Of a stretch of 64,000 nt of DNA, positions 811 to 36,205 are shown piece by piece. The position numbers and the translations under genes are program-made. Under the pieces are notes generated by a model, which saw only the letters and a program-made list of their open reading frames with translations, searched no databases and was not told where the DNA came from. Each line of letters starts with the position of its first letter. Position 1 is the stretch's first letter. Source of the DNA: Bacteroidota bacterium (GTDB lineage: Bacteria > Bacteroidota > Ignavibacteria > Ignavibacteriales > Ignavibacteriaceae); assembly GCA_022564295.1 (NCBI GenBank), contig JADFLR010000004.1:75840-139839 (forward strand), in the 5' to 3' direction.

Positions 811-2612
811 TGAAATATCTTTTACACATAGCAATCCTTATTAGTTTACTCGTTGGTTGTTCCGGAACTAAAGAAGTGCACCAGGCAACAACTAATAAAC
901 AATTTGAGGAAGTTGATAATCCCAAAGAGAAGGCACTGGAACACTTTCTTAACGGAAGTATTGCAGAGCAGGAAGGTGATTACCAAACTGCTGTTTTAGA
1001 ATATCAAAATGCATTGAAATATGACATAAGTGGCGGTATCTATTATGCATTGGCAAAATCATATCTGGCTAATAATAAACTATCAAATGCACTTCAAAAT
1101 ATTCGTTTGGCAGTTGAAGATGATCCTAAAGAAACTGAATATTATAATTTGATGGCAGACATTTTCATCACTGCAAGGGAAAATGATTCTGCGGCAGTTG
1201 TGCTTGAAAAACTTATTGAACTTGATTCAACAGATGTTAACACTTATTATAAATTAGCCCGTGTTTATGAAAATTCGAAACCGCTTGAAGCAATAAGAAT
1301 TTATGAACAGTTAATAAAAGTTATTGGTCCAGAATGGAATATATTAATTAGAGTAGCCGAATCATATGAAAAACTTGGTTATAACGAAGAAGCTGCAAAC
1401 TCGCTGGAAAAACTTCTGGCAATAGATCCAAGCAATGTAGCCCTTCAAAAACTTATTATTGAATTTTACCAGCGAACAGAAAATTATGATGCTGCGCTAA
1501 TTATGGTAAATGATATTGTTGAGTCAACACCTGATGATCTTGATGCACGGGAAAAGAAAGCACAAATATTAATTCAAATGGGGGAGTGGGAAGCTGCTTC
1601 TGAAGAATACAATTTTCTTATCCAGCAGGAAGAAATTCCGCTTGAAAGCAAAATTGGGATAGGAGCTTCTTTTTTTGCTAAGGCAATAAGCGATTCATCT
1701 GTCTTACCAGTTGCAAAAGATATTTTTGAAACTATAGATGCTGATACGAACGATTGGCAGGTAAAATTGTATCTTGGAGCAATCGCGTTAAGTGAAAGCG
1801 ATGATTCTACAGCAATTGAATATTTTAAGTACGTTACTGAAAATGCACGCTATAATTCACAAGCATGGATTCGTTTAGGCGGATTGTATTTCGATAACCA
1901 AAAATATGATGAAGCAGAAAAGTTAATGCGCGAAGCAGTTGAAATGTTTCCGAATGATTTTGCCGTTAATTTAATTCTTGGTTTATCGCTCGCACAAAAC
2001 ACTAAAACTTTAGATGCAGAACCCTACTTACTTAAAGCTGTTCAGCTTAACCGGAATGATTTAACAGCGCTCTCGGCTTACGCTTTTACGCTCAGTCGAC
2101 TTGGGCGTGAAGATGAAGCGATTGAGTATCTTAAAATTGCATTAAAGATGGACCCGGATGATGTTAACCTGCTCGGTCAGTTGGGCTTGAGTTATAATAA
2201 TCTAAAATATATGGCTGAAAGTGACAGTGTTTATGAAAAAGCTTTGGAGCTGGAACCTGATAATGCATTAATAAACAACAACTATGCATACTCACTTTCG
2301 GAACGTGCTCTTCAACTTGAACGTGCTTTGAAAATGGTTAACATTGCTTTAGATGCTGATTCAGTTAACTCCTCATATCTCGATACAAAAGGTTGGATTT
2401 TTTATCAACTTGAAGAATATGATAAAGCACAAGAGTATATTGAAAAAGCTATTGAAGCTGACGGAGAGAATTCAGTAATGCTGGAACATTTAGGTGATAT
2501 ACTATTTAAGAAAGGAAAACAATCTCAAGCAATGGAAACATGGAAGAAAGCATTAGATATGGATTCGGATAGTGAAACTCTTATTCAAAAAGTTGAGACG
2601 GGTGTGATTTGA
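810..2612 (+). CDS. TPR-repeat outer-membrane lipoprotein
   Basis: This is a 600-residue protein from ATG 810. That start gives a clean lipoprotein signal, MKYLLHIAILISLLVGCSG, with the lipobox cysteine at about residue 17. An upstream ATG at 747 would add 21 charged residues and spoil the signal. The rest is almost entirely tetratricopeptide repeats, with recurring AxxYYxLA, A..Y..AL and LxPxNxxxxxxLG patterns from about residue 45 to the end. It is most likely a scaffold on the periplasmic face of the outer membrane. The stop overlaps the TTG start of the next gene by 3 bases, so the two are translationally coupled. TPR scaffolds of this size occur in polysaccharide export and Bam-like assembly, but the exact partner cannot be read from the sequence. 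Confidence 0.85.
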   Translation: MKYLLHIAILISLLVGCSGTKEVHQATTNKQFEEVDNPKEKALEHFLNGSIAEQEGDYQTAVLEYQNALKYDISGGIYYALAKSYLANNKLSNALQNIRLAVEDDPKETEYYNLMADIFITARENDSAAVVLEKLIELDSTDVNTYYKLARVYENSKPLEAIRIYEQLIKVIGPEWNILIRVAESYEKLGYNEEAANSLEKLLAIDPSNVALQKLIIEFYQRTENYDAALIMVNDIVESTPDDLDAREKKAQILIQMGEWEAASEEYNFLIQQEEIPLESKIGIGASFFAKAISDSSVLPVAKDIFETIDADTNDWQVKLYLGAIALSESDDSTAIEYFKYVTENARYNSQAWIRLGGLYFDNQKYDEAEKLMREAVEMFPNDFAVNLILGLSLAQNTKTLDAEPYLLKAVQLNRNDLTALSAYAFTLSRLGREDEAIEYLKIALKMDPDDVNLLGQLGLSYNNLKYMAESDSVYEKALELEPDNALINNNYAYSLSERALQLERALKMVNIALDADSVNSSYLDTKGWIFYQLEEYDKAQEYIEKAIEADGENSVMLEHLGDILFKKGKQSQAMETWKKALDMDSDSETLIQKVETGVI

Positions 2613-32776: not shown

Positions 32777-32925
32777 TTATTCTTTAATTAATAATCCCTT
32801 CACTTGACCTATATCATCTTCCGGTATCAACGAGGTTAGTTCTTCTTTTGAATTATCTTGATCACAATACTCATAAAATTTAATTCCGGATTTTCTAATC
32901 TTATCAACCGCATAGTTTTTAATTG
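32777..32925 (-). pseudogene. possible coding remnant without start codon
   Basis: On the minus strand, an open frame of about 48 codons reads with protein-like composition. It includes KIRKSGIKFYEYCDQD and EELTSLIPEDDIGQ, and ends ...LLIKE before TAA at 32777. It has no ATG, GTG or TTG start. It lies one base out of frame with, and directly behind, the lipoprotein gene at 32919-33338. It may be the frameshifted tail of a longer gene or a leftover fragment. Chance cannot be excluded. Confidence 0.35.
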
Positions 32926-33338
32926 TTGTTTAAAATTCCAAAACTTCCACTGGAGTTAAACTCTTCCGGGTTATTACTGCTTACTACTTTAATGCTGTAA
33001 TGAACAGAATTATCAATCGTATCGGGTATTTGCCAGAAATAACTACCCGTGTTTTGAGTAGCTTTAATAATGGTTCTCTGTAAAACGCTTTTCCTGTAAA
33101 GAAAGATGTTCAGTTTGCTCACAGAAGAAAAAGAAGTTAACCACTTTATTTCTATCAAATCGCCGGGAGCATAAATATCGCCTCTAACAGGAGAAGTGAC
33201 TATGATTTTTTCTACAGGTTCAAAATCTGTTGTAATAATTCCAGGGTCGTTTGCTCCTTCAAGTAATTGTCTGCACCCGGTAAACAATGCAATAAAAATT
33301 AATGCAGAAATAACAACGTTATATAGTTTGCATTTCAT
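32919..33338 (-). CDS. lipoprotein with Kre9/KNH-like Ig domain
   Basis: This 139-residue protein has a lipoprotein signal (ISALIFIALFTGCRQ, lipobox Cys at about residue 22). One Ig-like domain follows (about 43-139), with the opening IIVTSPVRGDIYAPGDLIEIKW and GSYFWQIPDTIDNSVHYSIKV typical of the Ser-Thr-rich GPI-anchored (Kre9/KNH) domain family. These domains occur in bacterial cell-surface proteins of unknown role. The gene stands alone. A possible out-of-frame continuation lies directly downstream, and a hairpin related to the 774 leader repeat lies upstream. Confidence 0.75.
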   Translation of the reverse strand: MKCKLYNVVISALIFIALFTGCRQLLEGANDPGIITTDFEPVEKIIVTSPVRGDIYAPGDLIEIKWLTSFSSVSKLNIFLYRKSVLQRTIIKATQNTGSYFWQIPDTIDNSVHYSIKVVSSNNPEEFNSSGSFGILNNN

Positions 33339-33360
33339 TTGTTAAATACTATTAATTTTT

Positions 33361-33393
33361 GTCCCGATGAATCTGGACTCATTTCATCTCATA
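33361..33393. repeat. diverged hairpin resembling the leader repeat
   Basis: GTCCCGATGAATCTGGAC (33361-33378) is an imperfect inverted repeat followed by TCATTTCATCTCAT. This resembles the arrangement at 757-790 (hairpin, then AGTTCCATCTGAC). The similarity is weak, so membership in the family is uncertain. Confidence 0.3.
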
Positions 33394-33581
33394 TCAAATA
33401 AATTATATCTCAATAAATGAAATTCAAATCATTAAGTCAATAGCTGTAGCATTTTTAAAGAAAATTCTTTTGAACTCTTACGTATTTATAATTATTTGAG
33501 GCATATTTCTCACTATAATTCATCACTTGTAAATGAACTAATGAATAGAACATAAATTTTCAAAAAAAAAGATTATTTTAG

Positions 33582-33597
33582 TGGCATAAGAATTGCA
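33582..33597 (+). promoter_or_regulatory. sigma-54 (-24/-12) promoter
   Basis: TGGCATAAGAATTGCA matches the sigma-54 consensus TGGCAC-N5-TTGCA at all key positions, with the GG and GC doublets exactly spaced. Transcription should begin about 12 bases after the GC, near 33608. Inverted repeats ATTCAT/ATGAAT (33518-33523 and 33541-33546) upstream are placed like an activator site. The promoter lies about 130 bases before a strong terminator, with no gene between. Confidence 0.65.
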
Positions 33598-33607
33598 AAA
33601 GAAGACC

Positions 33608-33730
33608 GAGTGCGATTCTCCTGTATAGAAATTACTTGATCTTGCTATTAAATGGCACAGATAAAGTAATACGCATCATATGTTCTCTCCTTAACCTCTG
33701 GATCATTTGCCTGATTCAGAGGTTTTTTTT
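33608..33730 (+). ncRNA. candidate small RNA under sigma-54 control
   Basis: The roughly 123-base stretch between the -24/-12 promoter and the terminator has no convincing ORF; the only ATG frame is five codons, at 33652. It contains complementary segments ATTACTT (about 33628-33634) and AAGTAAT (about 33664-33670) that could form an internal hairpin. The 3' half is the terminator stem. The organisation is that of an independently transcribed small RNA. It sits in an otherwise empty 670-base gap (33339-34009). Confidence 0.55.
33693..33730 (+). terminator. rho-independent terminator
   Basis: AACCTCTGGATCA (33693-33705) pairs with TGATTCAGAGGTT (33712-33724) around the loop TTTGCC. This gives a 13-pair stem with one G-T pair. 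A run of eight T bases (33723-33730) follows. It is the clearest terminator in the window and belongs to no protein gene. Confidence 0.9.
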
Positions 33731-33969
33731 ATCTCTTTTCTGTGATAATCTATTACACAACCAAAATTTCTTATAAAAAAAGATTAAGAACGTTAATAAT
33801 AAAGCCTTTTAGAACGATTATTTTTTATCGGATCAGAATATCAGTTTGACAACAACAATTTATATATAAAATAGTTTTGAATTATAAAATCTTATCAGTA
33901 AAAGTCCCTCATTATTATAAAATGTGATTTTTACCCATTTCCTGGCTTTTTATTCAAAACTCATTTACA

Positions 33970-33977
33970 TATATTTG
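33970..33977 (+). promoter_or_regulatory. possible Bacteroidota-type -7 promoter element
   Basis: TATATTTG fits the TAnnTTTG -7 consensus known from Bacteroidota. It lies 33 bases before the ATG of the UvrD-type helicase gene. No good TTTG -33 element is seen at the expected distance. Whether Ignavibacteria use this consensus is an assumption. Confidence 0.3.
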
Positions 33978-34009
33978 CACTCTTATTTTTCAACACTATT
34001 TAATAAACG

Positions 34010-36205
34010 ATGGGTAAAATGGTAGATTTAAAGAATTTGAATGATTCTCAGCGAAAAGCTGTTGAATATGTTGGTTCACCGCAGATGATAATTGCTGGTG
34101 CCGGCTCGGGTAAGACACGCGTGCTTACATTTAAAATTGCATATCTAATACAAAAAGAAAAATATAAACCGGAATCTATTCTTGCGTTAACCTTTACAAA
34201 TAAAGCTGCTAACGAAATGAAGGAGAGAATAAAGGAACTGATTGGGAAAAAAGCAGATAATTTGTGGATGGGTACTTTTCATTCTATTTTCGCCAAAATA
34301 TTAAGAATAGAAGCTAAGCACACCGCCTTCCAAAGAAATTTTTCTATTTACGATACTGAAGATTCATTATCGCTCGTAAATAATATCATTAATAATTTTG
34401 ATATTGATATTGAAGGAATTACGCCAAACTCGATAAGACATCGCATAAGTTTCATGAAAAACCACATGGTTATGCCAAAGGAATATCGCAAAAATCATGT
34501 TCATTCTTTTGATGATGAAAAGATAGCTGATATATATGATGAGTATCAAAAAAGACTTGTTGCAAATAATGCAATGGATTTTGATGATCTTCTTTTAAAA
34601 CCTATAGAATTGTTTAATGCAAAACCCAACATCCTGCAAAAGTATAAGAAGAAATTCAGTTACTTACTTGTTGATGAATTTCAGGATACAAACAAGGCAC
34701 AATATGAACTATTAAAATTATTTGTATCGCGTAGTTGTAAAATAACAGTTGTTGGCGATGATGCACAAAGCATCTATAGCTGGCGCGGTGCTAACTTGGA
34801 TAACATGCTTAACTTCGGAAAGGATTATCCAAAGCACAAAATATTCCGCTTAGAACAGAATTACAGATCTACCAAAACTATTCTTCAGGCGGCAGATTCT
34901 ATTATTAAAAATAATAAAGAACAGTTGGTTAAAACATTATGGACTGAGAACAACGACGGCGAAAAATTATCCGTGATTAAATGTGCAGATGAAAAAGATG
35001 AAGCTCTTCAAATTGCAAGACATATTAAAAGAGAGATCACAAAGAAAAAGTTAAGTCATAAAGATTTCACTGTTCTATACAGAACAAATGCTCAATCGCG
35101 TGTGCTGGAAGATATTTTCAGAAAGGAAAAACTGCCTTATGCGATAATAGGCGGGGTGGAATTTTACAGAAGAAAAGAAGTGAAAGATATAATTGCATAT
35201 CTTCGTGTAGTTGTTAACCAGAACGATGAAGAAAGCTTGCTTAGAATTATGAATTTTCCGCAAAGAGGTATTGGTAACACTACCGTTACACGGATGATCG
35301 CTTTTGCAAGGAAACATGAAATTTCGCTCTTCCAAACAATGGCAAGAGTTTTTGAAGTAATAGAAATAAAAGAAAGAATACAAAAGAATGTAAAGGGTTT
35401 CCGCCTTCTGTTAGAAAAATATATTGGATTGAAAGATAAACTTTCAGTTGGCGAGCTATCGAGAGCACTTGTTGATGATTTGAGCTTGATAAAAATGTTC
35501 AAAAATGAACGCACACAGGAGTCTATGCAAAGGTTGGAGAACATAAATCAATTACTTGCAGCGCTTACTGAATATTCTGAATCCGCAAAGAGTGTAAAGT
35601 TAGAAGACTTTCTTGAGGAAGTTTCTCTTGTTACAGGTGTAGATGCTTATGAAGATGATAAAAATGTTGTCACTTTAATGACGCTGCACAGTGCAAAGGG
35701 ACTCGAATTTCCTGTAGTATTTCTTTCAGGGTGCGAGGAGGATATCTTCCCTCTTTCAAACAGGTTTAGCTCCGACGCAACCGTTGCTGAGGAAAGAAGA
35801 TTATTTTATGTCGGTTTAACACGCGCGCAACAAAAGGTTTTTATCTGCCATGCAAGGTCAAGATATCGTTTTGGTGAAGTTGCATATCAAAGCAGATCGA
35901 GATTTATTGATGAGTTGGACCCCGAAACCTTCCAGGAAGTGAACGGCGGAATAGGCAGGAAATCCAACAGAAAAACCAGAAAAGAAATTTATTACGAATA
36001 TTTCGATACAGTTGATTATGCAGATTTTGATCATGATAATCTTGATATAAGACCCGGTAGCCGTGTGATGCATGAAAAGTTTGGATTAGGCAAAGTAACT
36101 GATATAACCGGTTCGGGAGAAATGGTAAAAGCAACTGTTCAGTTCGAAGGGAATAATATTAAAAACCTAATGCTAAGATTCGCAAAGCTTAAAATTCTTA
36201 ATTGA
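34010..36205 (+). CDS. uvrD: UvrD/PcrA-type superfamily 1 DNA helicase
   Basis: This is a 731-residue SF1A helicase. Motif I/Walker A is IIAGAGSGKTRVL (about residues 27-39), motif Ia LALTFTNKAANEMKER, and motif II VDEFQDTN (about 223-230). Motif III is VVGDDAQSIYSWRGA, motif IV HKIFRLEQNYRS, and motif V/VI VTLMTLHSAKGLEFPVVFLSGCEE with EERRLFYVGLTRAQ. The C-terminal end carries a small Tudor-like domain typical of PcrA (RPGSRVMHEKFGLGKVTDITG). It acts in nucleotide excision and mismatch repair, unwinding DNA 3' to 5'. A second in-frame ATG lies at 34019. The PFK gene starts 44 bases downstream. Confidence 0.95.
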   Translation: MGKMVDLKNLNDSQRKAVEYVGSPQMIIAGAGSGKTRVLTFKIAYLIQKEKYKPESILALTFTNKAANEMKERIKELIGKKADNLWMGTFHSIFAKILRIEAKHTAFQRNFSIYDTEDSLSLVNNIINNFDIDIEGITPNSIRHRISFMKNHMVMPKEYRKNHVHSFDDEKIADIYDEYQKRLVANNAMDFDDLLLKPIELFNAKPNILQKYKKKFSYLLVDEFQDTNKAQYELLKLFVSRSCKITVVGDDAQSIYSWRGANLDNMLNFGKDYPKHKIFRLEQNYRSTKTILQAADSIIKNNKEQLVKTLWTENNDGEKLSVIKCADEKDEALQIARHIKREITKKKLSHKDFTVLYRTNAQSRVLEDIFRKEKLPYAIIGGVEFYRRKEVKDIIAYLRVVVNQNDEESLLRIMNFPQRGIGNTTVTRMIAFARKHEISLFQTMARVFEVIEIKERIQKNVKGFRLLLEKYIGLKDKLSVGELSRALVDDLSLIKMFKNERTQESMQRLENINQLLAALTEYSESAKSVKLEDFLEEVSLVTGVDAYEDDKNVVTLMTLHSAKGLEFPVVFLSGCEEDIFPLSNRFSSDATVAEERRLFYVGLTRAQQKVFICHARSRYRFGEVAYQSRSRFIDELDPETFQEVNGGIGRKSNRKTRKEIYYEYFDTVDYADFDHDNLDIRPGSRVMHEKFGLGKVTDITGSGEMVKATVQFEGNNIKNLMLRFAKLKILN

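Follow-up and report, generated by a model that had tools for sequence, protein, structure and literature searches.

Among the small RNAs transcribed with sigma-54, the Qrr RNAs of Vibrio are driven by sigma-54 and LuxO, act by pairing in trans and work together with Hfq. In Enterobacteriaceae, GlmY and GlmZ are described as having sigma-54 promoters with upstream sites for the enhancer-binding protein QseF/GlrR, and as being tied to the supply of envelope precursors (PMC6075780, PMC3844500); GlmZ is reported to be Hfq-dependent and to activate glmS, and GlmY to be a decoy for RapZ (PMC6075780). CrcZ and CrcY of Pseudomonas are reported to have RpoN-dependent promoters activated by CbrAB and to antagonise Hfq-Crc (PMC8657755). 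PmaR of Agrobacterium is described as a small RNA that controls cell-wall genes and carries an accessible C-rich loop; in Staphylococcus, the vigR 3'UTR reportedly pairs with the mRNA of isaA, a lytic transglycosylase, and promotes its expression (PMC9217812). The sources consulted on sigma-54 small RNAs deal mainly with proteobacteria, and papers on small RNAs of Leptospira and Borrelia also exist. No report on small RNAs in Ignavibacteria was found in the literature searched, which was mainly that under open licence.

The locus described here lies in a window of 64,000 nucleotides (contig JADFLR010000004.1, positions 75,840 to 139,839) from a member of the Ignavibacteriaceae. It resembles GlmY/GlmZ, as these are described, in being a putative sigma-54 small-RNA gene with a candidate upstream activator site and a predicted link to the envelope; differently from them, its candidate activator site is TCTCA-N6-TTCA instead of the TGTN12ACA given for GlmY/GlmZ, no Hfq was found, and the RNA is predicted to repress a lytic enzyme. 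With the Qrr RNAs it would share the sigma-54 promoter and pairing in trans, whereas here there is no Rfam match and no Hfq found. CrcZ and CrcY are characterized in the cited account as antagonists of Hfq-Crc, while the present RNA has a proposed pairing core and comes from genomes where Hfq was not found. PmaR belongs to another phylum, and the present core differs from its described loop in covering also the start codon. Finally, the vigR/isaA pair, as reported, involves an mRNA 3'UTR that promotes expression, whereas a stand-alone small RNA with predicted repression is proposed here. This RNA represents a new family within an already known kind, the sigma-54-driven small RNAs; as far as our limited searches show, such an RNA is new for this phylum.

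Locus and gene context

The first-pass annotation of the window had proposed a sigma-54-driven small-RNA candidate in a gap of about 670 bases; the gap measures 671 bases (33339-34009) and is flanked by a lipoprotein gene and a helicase gene. The features of the locus are:

32919..33338, minus strand: neighbouring gene for a Kre9/KNH-domain lipoprotein, divergent, outside the small-RNA unit
33508..33523, plus strand: candidate upstream activator site TCTCACTATAATTCAT, consensus TCTCA-N6-TTCA
33582..33597, plus strand: sigma-54 promoter -24/-12, TGGCATAAGAATTGCA, TGGCA-N6-TTG in 11/11 homologues
33608..33730, plus strand: small RNA of about 123 nt, predicted start 33608 (start from promoter geometry, 3' end from the terminator)
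33608..33625, plus strand: 5' module GAGTGCGATTCTCCTGTA, containing a second CU-rich motif, in the window's genus only
33610..33676, plus strand: 5' hairpin as predicted for the window RNA; its outer helix joins 33610-33614 to 33672-33676, its inner one 33631-33637 to 33664-33670
33673..33692, plus strand: 20-nt invariant core GCATCATATGTTCTCTCCTT, the proposed seed, complement of a Shine-Dalgarno (SD) sequence and start codon
33693..33730, plus strand: intrinsic terminator, 13-pair stem 33693-33724 with 6-nt loop, T run 33723-33730
34010..36205, plus strand: neighbouring gene for a PcrA/UvrD helicase, outside the small-RNA unit

The proposal gained support from the presence of rpoN in the host genome and from the conservation of the promoter-terminator pair in 10 relatives, with transcription itself being a prediction. 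Sequence comparison shows that the unit is conserved, promoter, core, terminator and upstream element being all retained in 11/11 homologues; transcription, activator, pairing and direction of regulation are what we infer. To the earlier reading the present analysis adds the upstream element, the core complementary to SD and start, a short form in a second genus and a candidate target. We consider it very likely that this is a real, independently transcribed small-RNA gene of the sigma-54 type. Within a full explanation that also includes activator, pairing and target, and that is rather probable when taken together, 33508-33730 is predicted to be a stand-alone small-RNA gene.

In most genomes having it, the small RNA occupies the gap between these neighbour genes. 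The pcrA gene is found downstream in 9/10 relatives, its alignment beginning 215 to 1981 bp past the core, and in the tenth the contig ends earlier. Genes for HIT and B12-binding proteins are located upstream in 8/10 relatives, the exceptions being L043, with the B12-binding gene only (contig end), and L040, with neither. The KNH-domain lipoprotein gave no tblastn match adjoining the small RNA in 2/10 relatives (L036 and L041), and in both the small RNA and its upstream element are retained. No tRNA was found at the locus.

Promoter, upstream element and sigma-54 machinery

The sequence TGGCATAAGAATTGCA, beginning at 33582 and ending at 33597, has GG-N10-GC spacing, and thus confirms the near-consensus -24/-12 promoter with exact GG/GC spacing that the first reading had described. 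TGGCAC is present in 10/11 homologues; the base at -12 is C only in the window copy, A in 3 relatives and G in 7. TGGCA-N6-TTG has a background of 9 occurrences per 800,000 strand-bases sampled from two relatives, and in the window it occurs 6 times on the plus strand, small-RNA site included, and 0 times on the minus strand. These six matches would agree with a random promoter-like string lying by chance near an ordinary terminator, a coincidence that becomes hardly credible given that 11 genomes from two genera conserve the arrangement and its internal spacing is fixed.

In the 11 genomes, TGGCAC-N5-TTGV was found at 151 sites, 10 of which are the small-RNA promoters, versus 58 for the reversed pattern; therefore, genuine sigma-54 sites exist in these genomes. 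The listed sites have A, G or C at -12, these bases being pooled. As the sigma-54 reading supposed, the host also encodes proteins with the Sigma54_activat domain of enhancer-binding proteins: there were 17 matches in the host (G000), 14 in G001 and 17 in G006, of which 12, 11 and 10, respectively, exceeded 200 bits; weak matches are uninformative, since 14/14 control genomes also give matches. A motif search within the window found no sigma-54 activator.

TCTCA is located 74-77 bp upstream of the promoter in 11/11 homologues (74, 75, 77, 75, 74, 75, 74, 75, 75, 75 and 77 bp), and the columns between the two are not conserved; a fixed TCTCA with diverged intervening sequence thus points to the layout of an activator site. 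The full TCTCA-N6-TTCA is found in 9/11 homologues, with G005 and G006 deviating. Enhancer-binding sites are described as typically lying about 70-150 bp upstream of sigma-54 promoters (PMC3844500), a range that includes the distance of the present element. No second copy of element plus promoter was found in the host. The same search in 80 family genomes returned, beyond 9/11 small-RNA loci, two places (L048 and L054); the control pattern gave one, and their membership in a regulon was rejected as chance.

In the host, 21 TGGCAC-N5-TTG sites (19 stretches) were examined, 10 of them inside open frames of more than 200 codons; near the 21 sites, 4 look-alikes of the upstream element with one mismatch were found at 3 sites, a raw count. 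Some sites precede open frames. At L264 (G000:C26:62954, minus strand), in this genome where no Hfq was found, the gene for a small RNA-binding protein, of the RRM type by eye, has its first start codon 76 nt downstream of the motif. L267, with two sites, and L270 have sigma-54-like sites ahead of related small lipoprotein-like ORFs, which start with MKTLL or MKTIQ and contain a GCAD motif. At L272 (G000:C57:64822), a sigma-54-like site precedes a protein with an RlpA-like motif, ASWYGPRF, and a copy of the upstream element with 1 mismatch is found 103 bp before the site. Finally, at L268 (G000:C43:11092) a sigma-54-like site lies ahead of a pair of small ORFs, both of which have, by eye, a ribosome site.

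RNA extent and structure

The usual geometry of sigma-54 promoters sets the transcript start relative to the -24/-12 elements; the predicted start near 33608 gives an RNA of about 123 nt. The 13-pair stem with eight T, part of the first reading, was found at 33693-33730, the first two T of the run belonging to the stem. The window RNA folds with -35.7 kcal/mol (z -4.57; 1/200 shuffles as good). In the terminator helix, retained in 11/11 homologues with two-sided pair changes between them, 96.1% of cells are paired and 8 cells show two-sided change, with 0/500 shuffles as high.

Two forms of the RNA are present. The long form, in the window's genus, has about 123 nt, with the promoter 89-96 bp before the core; it begins with GAGTGCGATTCTCCTGTA, followed by the hairpin. 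This 5' module is well conserved in 5/5 homologues of the window's genus and absent from 6/6 short forms. The short form, in the second genus, consists of core and terminator for a total of about 60 nt; its promoter lies 27-28 bp before the core, and therefore the RNA would start at the core. In the five long-form sequences, 90.7% of cells are paired, with 4 pairs changed on both sides and 2/500 shuffles as high; in the same five, pairing amounts to 81.7% for the inner 5' helix, where 2 of 12 pairs show two-sided change, and to 92.0% for the outer one, where none does. The 5' hairpin is thus supported in part.

That no real protein-coding frame lies in the unit was borne out: by eye, no reading frame is conserved on either strand across the homologues. 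On the minus strand, peptides starting from the ATG of the core are 5-53 aa long and differ, except that three short forms have residues dictated by the promoter. Read on the plus strand, the core ATG gives MFSP and a stop in 4/5 long forms, and elsewhere the peptides diverge after the first residues.

These data also bear on the idea that the sequence is not a free small RNA, but a leader or attenuator of pcrA, or else the leader, on the minus strand, of the divergent lipoprotein gene. Its position between these genes in most genomes would fit, as would the minus strand of the core, which reads as SD and ATG. However, the pcrA distance ranges from 215 to 1981 bp, 2/10 relatives show no lipoprotein match next to the RNA, the minus-strand peptides are not conserved, and T run, promoter and upstream element are all on the plus strand. 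With distances varying and neighbours lost, a leader of either gene was rejected as very improbable.

Distribution of the small RNA

The core GCATCATATGTTCTCTCCTT was found with 0 mismatches in 11/11 homologues, although 2 were allowed. These represent 11/80 family genomes, namely 5/6 of the window's genus, 6/6 of the second genus and 0/68 of the others; a reversed-core control gave 0 matches in the 80 genomes. A DNA search of 59 genomes (the host and 58 relatives) recovered the unit in 4/5 congeners, and core plus terminator in two genomes of the second genus; the remaining matches were short (E 1e-4 to 0.01) and outside the unit. The sixth congener, G003, has no core; since a strong pcrA match is missing too, its lack of a copy is probably an assembly gap. 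Upstream of pcrA, both the sigma-54 motif and the core are absent from the 26 relatives outside the two genera that offer upstream sequence; of the 27 loci in this comparison, L233 extends only about 12 bp upstream and L232 about 650 bp.

The named records with the core are metagenome-assembled genomes (MAGs) of Ignavibacteriaceae, BMS3Abin03 and one 'Bacteroidetes bacterium'; NCBI taxonomy places the family in Ignavibacteriota. When the initial 18 nt of the core were used to scan GTDB, 12 stretches matched, and 9 of these are MAGs labelled Ignavibacteriaceae/Ignavibacterium (6), BMS3Abin03 (2) and Bacteroidetes (1), taken to be genomes already counted. L076 and L081, from unrelated organisms, were taken as chance, open frames of more than 160 codons spanning the site, as was the viral match L086, inside a 312-codon frame.

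A covariance model, R1, run on 164 genomes of the order, matched at least 89 of them at E <= 0.1; among the matches listed, the high scorers are the 11 known loci only (69.6-80.8 bits), the next having 36.5 bits. TGGCA-N6-TTG was found directly upstream of none of 9 weak matches and 20 stretches around further ones (one repeating L068), and two of the inspected stretches have it elsewhere. L067 and L068 (G046 and G038, from another family of the order; about 1500-1565, minus strand) share TCATATCTACACTCCTTATA and a terminator across two genera. TCATATCTACACTCCTTATA resembles TCATATGTTCTCTCCTTATA of the short form (17/20 by eye) and is complementary to an SD-ATG layout; both loci are without the sigma-54 motif, and their gene contexts differ.

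Rfam, which includes the GlmY and GlmZ families, gave no match at gathering score within the window, and neither of these two families was found in the gap at E <= 5. The short RNA NsiR1 (RF02399) matches weakly at 33681-33730 (19 bits against a gathering score of 39, E 0.36); identity with it was rejected, the score being below threshold and the 9 homologue loci searched having no Rfam match at E <= 1.

One more occurrence of the core was found far from this family. L077, in a Parcubacteria MAG (contig LCEZ01000019.1, 7075-7220, plus strand), has the exact 20-nt core in an intergenic position, with a tRNA cluster on one side and an M17 aminopeptidase gene on the other, and shares 22 identical nt with 6 short forms. 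A sigma-70-like promoter, TTGACA-17-TATATT, with 11/12 bases matching, ends 7 nt before the core, so placed that the RNA would start at the core. In the predicted RNA the core is unpaired and is followed by a long hairpin and a terminator-like hairpin (z -6.63, 0/200 shuffles as good); the locus scores 35.5 bits with R1. The string TGGCACTAGTATTGG, about 130 nt downstream, occurs also once in the host. With uniform bases, the collection scanned should contain an exact 20-mer about 0.5 times, which leaves room for chance; promoter and hairpin make the match suggestive, and a relative in a distant phylum, driven by sigma-70, is possible. L077 could equally be the result of a transfer or a misbinned contig. 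As the core stands there behind a sigma-70-like promoter, it would not be tied to sigma-54 everywhere; L077 argues for the core mattering as RNA and against its being bound to sigma-54. A plasmid search with the L077 RNA (E 0.3) and a phage search with the short form (E 0.6) each gave a weak match only, without core.

Predicted pairing of the core and candidate target

The complement of the core, AAGGAGAGAACAUAUGAUGC, corresponds to an SD sequence followed by a start codon, and this exact complementarity makes translational repression by pairing the likeliest mode of action. The last 10 nt of the core are all unpaired in 6/11 folds, with mean unpaired probability of 0.61-0.96. The compact hairpins of the RNA could instead serve to bind a protein, as for a decoy, and precedents are described in the sigma-54-driven GlmY, which sequesters RapZ (PMC6075780), and in CrcZ, which antagonises Hfq-Crc (PMC8657755). 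However, the most conserved stretch is predicted to be mostly single-stranded and complements an SD-start layout exactly, which fits a pairing seed better; thus, action through protein binding is improbable, and we regard pairing in trans at ribosome sites as likely. Hfq was found in 0/11 genomes bearing the small RNA, some of them incomplete, and in 5/14 control genomes; therefore, pairing would be Hfq-free.

A search for the core complement in 12 genomes, allowing up to 3 mismatches, returned the 11 self-matches and 10 others, while the reversed control gave 3. Three of the ten are inside genes and 7 at start codons, 5 of the latter preceding products that appear secreted or lipoprotein-like by eye. 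The seven comprise a transglycosylase in two genomes; the others, judged by eye, are a small MMHLK protein in two genomes, a protein resembling those of the outer membrane, an FN3-like secreted protein and a lipoprotein without Pfam match. With a shorter pattern and 1 mismatch, 65 matches were obtained, 11 self and 54 off-locus, versus 46 for the control; thus, there is no genome-wide enrichment. Among the start-site matches of this search are housekeeping genes, which by eye look RpoC-like and HU-like, and the transglycosylase start is matched in 4/6 genomes of the second genus (G006, G078 twice, G079 and G080). The candidate target protein has an SLT domain and LysM repeats, with a lipoprotein-like start by eye.

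The transglycosylase was matched in 29/30 genomes, and hybrids were compared between 11 genomes with the RNA and 16 relatives without it, using one start per gene, the SD-bearing one, chosen by eye; the comparison excludes G003 (start codon off contig), G014 (match from residue 39) and G022 (no match). The mean hybrid energy at the transglycosylase start is -18.2 kcal/mol (-28.4 to -11.7) with the RNA and -10.1 kcal/mol (-15.9 to -6.0) without it, one relative without RNA reaching -15.9. This difference was attained by 0/2000 shuffled cores and by 0/2000 cores shuffled in the first 11 nt only; such p-values overstate the case, since the target was picked after the matches in the second genus had been seen and the genomes are related. 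Hybrids are exceptional in G006, G078 and G080, at -25 to -28 kcal/mol; of 334 gene starts sampled, the best reaches -20.5. They are fair in G034, G079 and G081, whereas the genus of the window has modest ones, with -14.5 in G000 and -11.7 in G001; of the sampled starts, 4.0 to 11.6% reach -14 kcal/mol. The 5' module was considered as a second pairing site and rejected, its hybrids with the same start (-9.9 to -11.7, p 0.058) being not clearly stronger than those of relatives without RNA.

A real sigma-54 small RNA could nevertheless have other mRNAs as main partners, be it SD regions in large number or, for the window's genus, some other key target; the transglycosylase match of the second genus may also be a by-product of a strong ribosome site. 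The modest hybrids of the window's genus, the lack of enrichment with 1 mismatch, the unremarkable pairing of the second CU-rich motif and the other start-site matches agree with this possibility. On the other side, the hybrids of three genomes exceed all 334 sampled starts, and orthologues in genomes without the RNA are weaker on average, by a difference that no shuffle of the first 11 nt reproduced. Taken with all its variants, this alternative seems unlikely, although it deserves attention. As to the lytic transglycosylase, the balance tips slightly towards its being a true target in the second genus, while in the window's genus this is doubtful.

Proposed mechanism and significance

The explanation that we favour as a whole, with some but not great confidence, is that of a sigma-54 small RNA repressing the transglycosylase mRNA through its core. 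An enhancer-binding protein would bind the site near 33508 and activate sigma-54 RNA polymerase at 33582-33597; the RNA would start near 33608 and end at the terminator, at 33730. The invariant core, predicted to be mostly single-stranded, would then pair in trans with mRNAs whose SD-to-start region resembles GGAGAGAACAUAUG, blocking ribosome entry and repressing translation without Hfq. The leading target would be the mRNA of the LysM/SLT murein lytic transglycosylase lipoprotein, and the RNA would thus lower peptidoglycan cleavage, and possibly the levels of other envelope proteins, in response to the signal sensed by the activator.

For Ignavibacteriota, a tentative picture that we hold for possible, rather than probable, is that of an envelope response controlled by sigma-54 and an enhancer-binding protein through an Hfq-free small RNA, whose core, complementary to the region from SD to AUG, would silence the lytic transglycosylase and other envelope proteins. 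It would be a separate counterpart of the GlmY/GlmZ type, with a 5'-extended CU-rich module in one genus and the same core under sigma-70 in a Parcubacterium. The locus offers a defined promoter, a candidate activator site, a proposed seed and a candidate target, all in genomes that gave no Hfq match, and with it Hfq-free trans-regulation under sigma-54 becomes directly testable outside proteobacteria.
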